A stretch of 36,527 nt of DNA, from positions 1 to 36,527 of IMG/VR virus record IMGVR_UViG_3300035698_005309. One strand, 5' to 3'. Every line of letters begins with the position of its first letter. The first letter of the stretch is position 1. Below the pieces are notes generated by a model that was given only the letters and a program-made list of their open reading frames with translations, made no database searches and was not told the origin of the DNA. Shown here in pieces: positions 7,163 to 36,527 of the stretch. The position numbers were made by a program, and so were the translations under genes. The DNA is from a virus.

Positions 7163-7948
7163 TTATCCTCTTTTTACCTGAACATTCGCATACTTGTCTT
7201 CCTCAGCGTGATGAATGTTAGTGTTGTTATTAAAACTATTTCCCTTGATCAAGAAATCTGATGGTTCTTTTTCATAGAAATCAGCAAGACCATTGCTTTG
7301 TCCTAAGAATTTCTGAATGGACCACTTGTGCGACCACCAATATTCCTTTCCATGATAAACCTTCGCATAAACATCAATCCCTGTTTTTATCTCTTCAATA
7401 GTAAATTTATTTAATGCAGCTTTTATCTTAGCTTTTTGAGTATCTAACATCTTCCTATGGACCTGAAGTTCTTTTCCATTCCAATAATCAAATATTTCTT
7501 TAACTTGATTAGAAGAAGAACCCTCTCCGATAGGTTTAGTATGGTTAAGTAAGGTTAGGTTTAGTGTACCATCCTGTACCCACCCTGTTATCTTTTCTTT
7601 AACATCATTAGGAAACCCTTTAAATATACGCCTAGCTCCCTTTTCCATTGATGGATTTTGTGATTGATTCTTATGAAAATTAACAAGAATTAAATAATCT
7701 TTATATCTCAATAATTTACCATCAGATTCAAACTTTTCTAACATTGGACCGATAATTTCTTTCTCAAATCCACACTCAAAAGCAATCCGTTTTTCAACGA
7801 TTTCGTATATACCTAAAACATTACATTGAGAGTTCGTTAAAAGATATATAAACAAAAGTTTATAATCAGGCGATAAATAAGATATATAGTTATCTGCCCA
7901 AAAACTATCTCTCACTGGTCTTTGTCTTCCGTGATCATCTCTACTCAT
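7163..7948 (-). CDS. Phage replication initiator / replisome organiser
   Basis: 261 residues. The first 100 residues (RDSFWADNYISYLSPDYKLL...NVLGIYEI...AFECGF...LVNFHKNQSQNP) match the winged-helix N-terminal domain of phage replisome organisers. The C-terminal region IFDYWNGKELQVHRKML...YWWSHKWSIQKFLGQSNGL resembles the conserved C-terminal domain of phage replication proteins ('W-S-L-x-x-F-L'). The middle is a polar linker. It likely binds the origin and recruits the DnaC-like loader (5372-5866) with host DnaB. The ATG at 7948 overlaps the stop of a 22-codon leader frame, and expression is probably controlled by the leader RNA at 7976-8069. Confidence 0.8.
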   Translation of the reverse strand: MSRDDHGRQRPVRDSFWADNYISYLSPDYKLLFIYLLTNSQCNVLGIYEIVEKRIAFECGFEKEIIGPMLEKFESDGKLLRYKDYLILVNFHKNQSQNPSMEKGARRIFKGFPNDVKEKITGWVQDGTLNLTLLNHTKPIGEGSSSNQVKEIFDYWNGKELQVHRKMLDTQKAKIKAALNKFTIEEIKTGIDVYAKVYHGKEYWWSHKWSIQKFLGQSNGLADFYEKEPSDFLIKGNSFNNNTNIHHAEEDKYANVQVKRG

Positions 7949-8013
7949 ATATTCTTTACTTCATTACAGGTTAATAAAAAAACAGAACAAACGACAGGAG
8001 GCTTAGATTTCAA
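7945..8013 (-). CDS. Candidate 22-codon leader peptide coupled to the initiator
   Basis: A TTG at 8013 lies 7 nt downstream of AAGGAGG (+ 8021-8027), the strongest SD in the genome. The frame encodes MKSKPPVVCSVFLLTC and six more residues, and ends in TGA overlapping the initiator ATG (ATGA, 7945-7948). The SD is paired with CCUCCU inside a hairpin and the TTG is in its loop. The arrangement is that of a translational leader; the peptide sequence itself need not matter. A TTG start and small size keep confidence moderate. Confidence 0.5.
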   Translation of the reverse strand: MKSKPPVVCSVFLLTCNEVKNI

Positions 8014-8069
8014 GTAGAAACCTCCTTGCGTTCACTCTGTTTGGTTGAATCTAATTTAATCCTACTTGA
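7976..8069 (-). ncRNA. Structured leader RNA of the initiator gene: long hairpin with loop-to-5'-end pseudoknot
   Basis: On the minus strand a 13-bp stem with three G-U pairs (+ 7981-7993 with 8029-8041) is capped, across a 2-nt mismatch, by AGGAGG/CCUCCU (7996-8001 with 8021-8026) and a 19-nt loop, and is followed by seven U (+ 7976-7982), so it can act as an intrinsic terminator. The loop octamer CUACUUGA (+ 8010-8017) is the exact complement of UCAAGUAG (+ 8062-8069), which begins within a few bases of the predicted transcription start. Either a terminated RNA of about 95 nt or an attenuator/pseudoknot controlling the initiator is expected. Confidence 0.7.
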
Positions 8070-8077
8070 TACCGATA

Positions 8078-8107
8078 AGTATATCATCTTTTTTATAAAC
8101 TCTGCAA
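8078..8107 (-). promoter_or_regulatory. Promoter for the replication/early operon
   Basis: On the minus strand TTGCAG (+ 8102-8107), an 18-bp spacer, and TATACT (+ 8078-8083). The predicted start near 8071 puts the RNA 5' end at the octamer that pairs with the leader hairpin loop. The spacing and -35 sequence resemble the promoter at 32528-32557 (TTGCAT-N18-TATAAT). Confidence 0.65.
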
Positions 8108-8241: not shown

Positions 8242-8625
8242 TTATGTTTCTAAAATATCTATACCATGAATTGCTTTCATCATCTTTTTCTTTAGTGAAA
8301 AAATATAATATGGATTACCACCCTTCCTACCCTTCACATCTTCATAAATCATTTCTCCGTTTTTCTCTCTATACTGAAAATCTAAATAGTATTTGCAAAT
8401 ATGCTCTCCGTTAATATCTAGCGAGTAAGGTATTTGATCCTGAAGTTCCGATATCTCTCCTGCTTGTTCAAGCAGTAAGAGATCACAGTGCCTCTGATAT
8501 TCCTTCTTGGACCGATAAGTTTTTCCATCAGCTTTAATCATCTGAGCTTTCATCTTGGAACTAACCTGAGATTTATTATTTTTATTGAGTTCATTAAACT
8601 CAGCGAGTGTCATTTGTATAACCAT
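8242..8625 (-). CDS. DUF1064-family putative nuclease
   Basis: 127 residues. The sequence KTYRSKKEYQRHCDLLLLE, GEISELQDQIPYSL, KYYLDFQYREKNGEMIYEDVKG, then FSLKKKMMKAIHGIDILE follows the phage DUF1064 family in order. Conserved E of SKKE, D of YYLDF and E-x-K of EDVKG fit a PD-(D/E)xK nuclease core, so a role as a resolvase-like or recombination endonuclease is likely. The start at 8625 is preceded, exactly 6 nt upstream, by an extended -10 (TGA-TACAAT), suggesting a separate, possibly leaderless transcript; an in-frame ATG at 8613 is an alternative. Confidence 0.78.
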   Translation of the reverse strand: MVIQMTLAEFNELNKNNKSQVSSKMKAQMIKADGKTYRSKKEYQRHCDLLLLEQAGEISELQDQIPYSLDINGEHICKYYLDFQYREKNGEMIYEDVKGRKGGNPYYIFSLKKKMMKAIHGIDILET

Positions 8626-8815: not shown

Positions 8816-8835
8816 TTAGATCACACCACCTCCTT
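8816..8835 (-). promoter_or_regulatory. Orphan strong ribosome-binding site with two-codon frame GTG-ATC-TAA
   Basis: Directly after the stop of the 8836-9060 gene comes AAAAGGAGG (GGAGG at + 8829-8833). No long frame follows: the only starts at suitable spacing are GTG-TGA and GTG-ATC-TAA (8816-8824). Most genes here have no SD, so a consensus SD without a gene is notable. It may be a remnant, a minigene, or part of an RNA. Confidence 0.4.
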
Positions 8836-29446: not shown

Positions 29447-30094
29447 TTAAGATAATGCTTTGATTCGAGCCTCTTCGAACTCTTTATCAGTCATATCCCA
29501 AGCACTCTTCCCTGTAGAAGATTTAGGTCGTGCTTTATTTCTACCAGGAGTTTTTGATTTCTTTGCCTTAGCGTTAGCTATAGCCTTCTTTCCAGAAATA
29601 TCAGCTTTTGGACCAAGTAGTCCACGAGCGATAAATTCAACCGAAACATCCTTATAGGCAGGTGAATCCATATACTTTCGAATCTTTGTTTCAAGACCTT
29701 TAGCATCTGGATATCTATCTAAAACATCTTGGAGTTCCTTCTCATCAGTTTCCTGAGTAAGTTTATCCCTAAATGGTTTTAGTGATTTATCGATTACCTT
29801 TTTTAATTCAGGATCATCGATATCTTCTTCTTCATCCAACGATCCATACTTGTCCTTGTATCGTTGGATCTCTTCATCCTTCTTTGAGAGTTGATTATCC
29901 TTTCGTTTAATAATGTAGTCCTTTACGTTTTTACGTACTGGAGGTTCATCATCTTCCTCTGGATCATCTTCTGGTTCATCCTCTTCTTCTTCAGATTCAC
30001 CTTCTTCATCAATCTCTTCTTCAATTTCCTCTTCAGGAACTTCCTCAACTTCAGGTTCAAGACCTTCCTCGTTGGTATTTAAATCATCTTCCAT
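29447..30094 (-). CDS. Capsid scaffold protein (215 aa)
   Basis: The first 50 residues are almost only Glu and Asp (GLEPEVEEVPEEEIEEE...SEEEEDEPEDDPEEDDEPP), followed by a charged coiled coil (DNQLSKKDEEIQRYKDKYG; DELQDVLDRYPDAKGLETKIRKY) and a basic C-terminus (KKAIANAKAKKSKTPGRNKARPK). This acid-helix-basic layout with position directly before the capsid gene is that of a phage scaffolding protein; the basic tail would bind capsid subunits. The N-terminus may also be packaged or degraded. Confidence 0.78.
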   Translation of the reverse strand: MEDDLNTNEEGLEPEVEEVPEEEIEEEIDEEGESEEEEDEPEDDPEEDDEPPVRKNVKDYIIKRKDNQLSKKDEEIQRYKDKYGSLDEEEDIDDPELKKVIDKSLKPFRDKLTQETDEKELQDVLDRYPDAKGLETKIRKYMDSPAYKDVSVEFIARGLLGPKADISGKKAIANAKAKKSKTPGRNKARPKSSTGKSAWDMTDKEFEEARIKALS

Positions 30095-30252: not shown

Positions 30253-30555
30253 TTAATCTTCTTCTAATACGTCTTTCGTTCCATACCCTTCATATGCCTC
30301 TACATCAACTCCTTCATCTTCTTCATAGAGTTCACGTATCAGGTTCTCAGGCAACTTCATTAAATCAAGCCTATCAATACGTTCACGTTGTAACTGTTCA
30401 ATAGTTTCTTCTTCTCTTAGTGGAGTTTCACCATGTAGCTTAGATTCTGTAATGGTTACATCCTCTTGAAGTTCTTCAAGTAAAACTTTCCATCCATCAC
30501 TTTCTACTAAGCTCTGTAATGCTGAAATTCTTTTGTTCTTTTCAAATTGATCCAT
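30253..30555 (-). CDS. Hypothetical acidic protein after portal (100 aa)
   Basis: The protein is helical and acidic (ISALQSLVESDGWKVLLEELQED; GETPLREEETIEQLQRER; EEDEGVDVEAYEG). Small acidic helical proteins beside the portal gene are common in podoviruses and may help portal or scaffold assembly; none is specific. It follows the portal stop by 2 nt. Confidence 0.65.
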   Translation of the reverse strand: MDQFEKNKRISALQSLVESDGWKVLLEELQEDVTITESKLHGETPLREEETIEQLQRERIDRLDLMKLPENLIRELYEEDEGVDVEAYEGYGTKDVLEED

Positions 30556-36391: not shown

Positions 36392-36527
36392 CTAATATTT
36401 CCAAGTTACTGCTTTCACTCCCCACATTTGACCTGATTGAATATCAGTAATAGCAACAGAATACATTCGTTTCATATCACCATTTTCTGCATTATCTCGA
36501 AGAGTGTTAAGTGTATCAATCACCTTA
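36392..36527 (-). CDS. Acb2/Tad1-type sponge, 3' part of the gene that starts at 217
   Basis: This is the C-terminal half of the 82-residue sponge described at 1-217, here repeated for 104 bases and then completed to TAG at 36392. The unique residues are GVKAVTWKY after QMW. The duplicated part is identical to 1-104, so this is one gene, not two. Confidence 0.62.
   Translation of the reverse strand, partial: KVIDTLNTLRDNAENGDMKRMYSVAITDIQSGQMWGVKAVTWKY
36424..36527. repeat. Terminal direct repeat, right copy
   Basis: Exact copy of bases 1-104. See the left copy. Confidence 0.95.

Follow-up and report, generated by a model that had tools for sequence, protein, structure and literature searches.

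The replication initiator gene in the stretch of DNA analysed here (the window, 36,527 bases long and filed as an IMG/VR virus record) is preceded by a predicted RNA of about 97 nt whose first nucleotides are exactly complementary to the apical loop of a strong intrinsic terminator. Related leaders, each an RNA of about 100 nt with its own promoter, were found in Bacteroidota-type phages ahead of initiators homologous to that of the window. Many have two hairpins, and 7-10 nt in the loop of the first are an exact complement of the apical loop of the second, the terminator. A promoter-like motif, the terminator, the exact complementarity, its upkeep among relatives and the position at the head of the replication operon can all be read from the sequences. 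This arrangement is apparently widespread among phages and undescribed. A partial literature search found no description of such an RNA; in Rfam 15 the window had no match at the gathering cut-off and no credible hit at high E, and six relatives had no match at E up to 1. We consider it probable that the leader, placed at the start of the replication operon, attenuates transcription, with word-loop pairing as the adjustable step.

The window carries an exact 104-bp direct repeat at its two ends (1-104 and 36424-36527) and thus probably represents a complete, circularly assembled genome. All of its main genes lie on the minus strand. A first-pass annotation had placed a promoter, two complementary words, an AAGGAGG string, a U tract and a short reading frame on this strand ahead of the initiator, and each was located where it had been placed (Table 1).

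Table 1. Predicted features of the initiator leader and the adjoining gene in the window.
Feature	Position	Strand	Basis
Replication initiator / replisome organizer, DnaD-like helicase-loader family	7163..7948	minus	phrog_6251 (E 4.5e-17), phrog_1701 (E 1.5e-13)
Predicted promoter: TTGCAG 8107-8102, 18-nt spacer, TATACT 8083-8078, extended -10 TGATATACT 8086-8078	8078..8107	minus	Sequence; motif enrichment
Predicted leader / terminated RNA, about 97 nt (start about 8071)	7975..8071	minus	Fold of 99 nt
5' word UCAAGUAG (TCAAGTAG at 8069-8062), first RNA nucleotides	8062..8069	minus	Exact complement of the loop word
Loop word CUACUUGA (CTACTTGA at 8017-8010)	8010..8017	minus	Compensating word at the same position in relatives
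Terminator hairpin: 14 bp outer stem, inner AGGAGG/CCUCCU stem, large apical loop	7979..8042	minus	Fold
Terminator U tract, seven T	7975..7981	minus	Sequence
AAGGAGG (SD-like) in the 5' arm of the hairpin; probably mere stem sequence	8021..8027	minus	SD-like strings in 3/24 related hairpins
22-codon TTG frame, from 8013 to TGA 7947-7945, with ATGA overlap on the initiator start (ATG at 7948); probably incidental	7945..8013	minus	5.8% of shuffles; not conserved

The extended -10 motif TGATAYAMT occurs eight times in the window, always on the minus strand (8/8) and seven times in non-coding DNA. This distribution supports the predicted RNA start near 8071. A different arrangement, TANNNT exactly 6 nt 5' of the start codon, was found at 7 of 45 window genes, compared with 1-3 at other spacings (starts at 8625, 19925, 21738, 28000, 30094, 32807 and 35137, minus strand), and suggests a signature of leaderless mRNAs in this phage. 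The initiator lacks it and would thus have an unusually long leader.

The terminator hairpin (8042-7979) lies 27 nt upstream of the initiator. It folds at about -25 kcal/mol (-24.8), and no other U-tailed hairpin in the window, whichever the strand, is as stable. The predicted 99-nt RNA folds at -27.7 kcal/mol (z = -3.87 against dinucleotide shuffles, 1 of 200 of which was equally stable), whereas a longer 136-nt stretch reached only z = -1.7. The octamer match was less extreme: at least 8 Watson-Crick pairs formed in 2.9-3.6% of shuffles and with 1.0% of other 31-mers of the window genome, and a duplex as strong as that observed (-12.4 kcal/mol) arose in 0.8% of shuffles. Taken alone the match, which was chosen post hoc, is only modestly improbable (chance 0.8-4% depending on the measure) and is suggestive rather than decisive. 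A clear 5' hairpin is absent from the window copy, where at most 3 bp can form. Its first word is on this reading a 5' tail and not the loop of a 5' hairpin, and the window is a variant of the group; its promoter type also differs from that of the relatives.

Evidence for the pairing came from other phages. The best named database match of the window initiator was Tenacibaculum phage JQ, and the initiator at relative locus L149 shares 41% identity with the window initiator over 112 aa (E 9e-29). Scans with the window initiator alone returned only distant C-terminal relatives, and no close relative of the window's own leader was found in the scans. The JQ initiator is preceded by a leader of the same layout whose words are unrelated to those of the window: AGCATCCTAC lies close to the RNA start, and GTAGGATGCT occupies the loop of a U-tailed hairpin. 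Scans for JQ-type initiators gave about 85 loci with upstream DNA (86), many of which have, in this order, a Bacteroidota-type promoter, a 5' hairpin and a U-tailed hairpin. BLAST of the relatives' RNAs against named phages yielded nothing useful. In structural relatives of the window, identified by terminase, portal and capsid scans, neither the initiator nor the leader DNA was found. They carry different replication modules and thus provide no covariation for the window leader.

As a control, each initiator was assigned the strongest U-tailed hairpin from the 700 nt in front of it, blind to complementarity. A strong hairpin was present at 62 of the 86 relative loci and absent upstream at the other 24. 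After removal of redundancy 33 hairpins remained, and 24 of these matched their own 5' flank exactly over at least 7 nt. Only 8.8% of flank/loop swaps between loci and 7.5% of shuffles reached this length. By eye, three hairpins that reach at least 7 nt in this test (L254, L257 and L273) lack the architecture, and four cases with 6 nt (L241, L242, L245 and L249) show it. An earlier, looser scan, which accepted a TAnnTTTG with a hairpin at any place in any locus, was uninformative and was replaced by this initiator-restricted test. One locus with an 11-nt match (L079) showed neither an initiator nor the setting of an operon head and was not counted as a relative.

The words themselves are highly variable, with 22 distinct words among 24 RNAs. 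When five related leaders were aligned, every cell of the 7-bp loop-loop helix was paired (100%), two-sided changes occurred in 6 of its 7 pairs, and none of 500 shuffles gave as good a whole structure. The 7-nt loops of L298, L301, L302, L307 and L308 pair fully. The 5' hairpin of the relatives was assigned from the subfamily alignment and inspection only; a generic test for its stem did not separate the leaders from random sites. Initiator DNA, promoter and linker are almost the same at loci L149 (2090-2800) and L151 (2080-2800). The two loci share neither hairpin and neither word, yet the words remain complementary within each locus. A small neighbouring gene also differs between the two, and the change is therefore probably a recombined module rather than a point mutation. 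The loop-to-5'-end pairing and the terminated RNA of about 95 nt, both proposed in the first-pass annotation, are strongly supported by relatives whose words differ and are still complementary.

The position of the element points to the replication operon. In 17 of 24 RNAs the host promoter motif TAnnTTTG is found no more than 45 nt ahead of the word (about 0.9 expected). A single RNA of the 24 has the motif in the 70 nt that follow the U tract, and downstream genes would therefore need read-through. In relatives the initiator or next gene often begins 7-20 nt past the U tract. The distance from RNA to initiator ATG is 9 nt in L155, L290 and L292 and 548 nt in L287 and L291; the L155 RNA recurs nearly unchanged in L287, with about 540 nt extra before the initiator. 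The RNA thus keeps its place in front of the operon as genes come and go. The element was not seen at six chromosomal initiator relatives or at the initiators of Firmicutes and Stenotrophomonas phages, which lie inside gene clusters.

We suggest the following course of events. The promoter would start the replication operon, and the RNA would meet the terminator after about 97 nt. Many transcripts would stop there as a short RNA, and only read-through would reach the initiator and later genes. To reach the initiator, a transcript from the only evident promoter has to pass the terminator, which often sits just a few bases ahead of the next start codon, and the replication operon would therefore depend on read-through. 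The first RNA nucleotides, replaced in relatives by the loop of the 5' hairpin, would pair with the apical loop of the terminator. Synthesis of the loop word precedes that of the 3' arm; the 5' word could thus pair while the terminator is still forming, and this pairing would set the frequency of termination, which it might raise or lower. In the minimum-energy fold of JQ the word-loop helix is present in place of the terminator, a single case that hints at antitermination. In the L298-type RNAs (subfamily A5) the complete terminator stem is compatible with loop-loop pairing, and since this holds for several relatives, pairing need not oppose termination. No classical antiterminator partner for the 5' arm of the terminator was found by eye in the window. 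The released RNA carries both words and might therefore also bind nascent leaders in trans, a feedback that would depend on copy number and use a phage-specific word. Such action in trans is a possible explanation for the different words of close relatives. Tentatively, the leaders may be read as a widespread phage RNA family that holds a phage-specific word in duplicate and whose released RNA serves in trans as an incompatibility or superinfection tag. Under that reading, and with the same caution, L149 and L151 would have a near-same initiator with swapped words and hence would not silence each other.

Control at the level of translation was the model of the first-pass annotation, in which a hidden SD, a coupled 22-codon leader and a pseudoknot switch act as in the IncB/IncI plasmids. 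The SD-like string, the TTG frame and the ATGA overlap do exist. The relatives, expected under that model to share the complementarity and the frame, kept the first and mostly not the second. An SD-like string is present in only 3 of 24 related hairpins, a frame that leaves the hairpin and extends to the following start in only 6 of 24, and a coupled frame of at least 22 codons arises in 5.8% of shuffles. AAGGAGG is also not unique: the window has 8 copies where 4.6 would be expected, and one other copy is non-coding (8829-8835). The annotation was right that the phage is SD-poor: nearly all window genes lack an SD, and the initiator start is like the rest. According to PMC9976891, SDs are not recognised by ribosomes in Bacteroidota, which would apply to the window if its host belongs there. 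Both the frame and the AAGGAGG are most likely incidental. Control by SD and leader peptide is unlikely in a phage with SD-less genes, and we give the translational model as a whole very little credence. Conserved features of the leaders are promoter, terminator and loop word, which places the element closer to transcription attenuation than to IncB/IncI leader-peptide control.

The same RNA could instead be a stand-alone sRNA gene of about 100 nt, with the kissing fold providing stability or a protein site, targets acted on in trans in the host or phage, and the initiator, a neighbour by chance, transcribed by read-through from upstream. The compact unit with its own promoter and terminator would fit, as would the coexistence of the kissing complex with a full terminator stem in L298-type RNAs. 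We nevertheless regard this as unlikely, since the RNAs sit at the head of initiator operons with the next gene often so close to the U tract and a promoter motif past it in a single case, and freely varying words are ill-suited to a fixed host target. It is less likely still that the window, whatever holds for the relatives, has a plain terminator and a chance octamer. The rate of the octamer in shuffles, the missing 5' hairpin and the different promoter type and phage lineage would allow for this; against it, homologous initiators with a strong terminator mostly carry the same arrangement, giving a high prior for a real match, and the match sits at the expected place, in the first RNA nucleotides. 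Inverted repeats adjoining an initiator gene might also act as DNA, by binding the initiator or a repressor or as an origin hairpin. This we hold to be very improbable: all members have a U tract, the RNA would begin with the first word to judge by its distance from the promoter, and the words differ in nearly every phage yet stay complementary, which fits RNA pairing better than a conserved protein site.

Attenuation by a loop-paired leader has partial counterparts among known systems. RNAI and RNAII of ColE1 pair through 7-nt kissing loops, but between molecules, in the control of a primer and with no intrinsic terminator as gate; the likeness lies in 7-nt loops that pair completely, as in L298 and the four leaders named with it. 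The RNAI/SLI system of the I-complex plasmids (IncB/IncI/IncK) shares loop-loop kissing in a rep leader, and changes in the loop define compatibility (PMC10724649). Control there is translational and by antisense RNA, whereas here the terminator is the conserved element. Transcription attenuation in front of a rate-limiting replication initiator would be shared with RNAIII/repR of the Inc18 plasmid pIP501, in which a separate convergent antisense RNA induces termination (PMC4981023), whereas the complementary word is here part of the same sense RNA. The P4 immunity CI RNA with its seqA/seqC (cf. IsrK of Gifsy-1), as described in PMC4825925, combines an untranslated replication-operon leader, short complementary words, premature termination and a small stable RNA; the anatomy of the leaders here fits this plan, with termination and the short RNA as predictions. 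CI is processed from the leader and pairs with other leader sites, whereas the word here would pair with the apical loop of the intrinsic terminator within the same RNA of about 100 nt. No tyrosine integrase over the cut-off was present in the 20 carrier records, some of which may be fragments. Lysogenic immunity of the P4 type is therefore unlikely for the carriers, which are mostly without integrase.

The group defined here, loop-paired initiator-leader RNAs, has no Rfam family and lies upstream of many phage initiators. To our knowledge, replication control in virulent Bacteroidota-type phages has been little studied. If the attenuator reading holds, a compact RNA element with a base-pairing code would predict when and how strongly the replication genes switch on. 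As the word differs among phages and the rest is conserved, mutual recognition of co-infecting phages through RNA, as in plasmids, becomes testable. The leaders would also offer a ready set of orthogonal loop-gated terminators.

Several smaller observations were made along the way. Flanking the kissing word, the terminators of L154, L239, L241 and L245 have the internal-loop motif GAGTAG ... CGAAA in common, which may be a protein site. Relatives of the window's major capsid protein (L049-L056, 42-55% identity) come from bins (MAGs) of Bacteroidia, Ignavibacteriae, Rhizobiales, Verrucomicrobiota and several candidate phyla, and one of them sits in a 445-kb Ignavibacteriae contig. In the window itself, the region 8837-8737 (minus) contains the second non-coding AAGGAGG (AAAAGGAGGTGGTGTGATC, a near-full anti-SD complement), with no well-spaced gene, followed by the second-strongest U-tailed hairpin. 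A very stable long hairpin without a U tract (30252-30178, minus, -35.6 kcal/mol) occupies the gap between a gene end at 30253 and a gene start at 30094.
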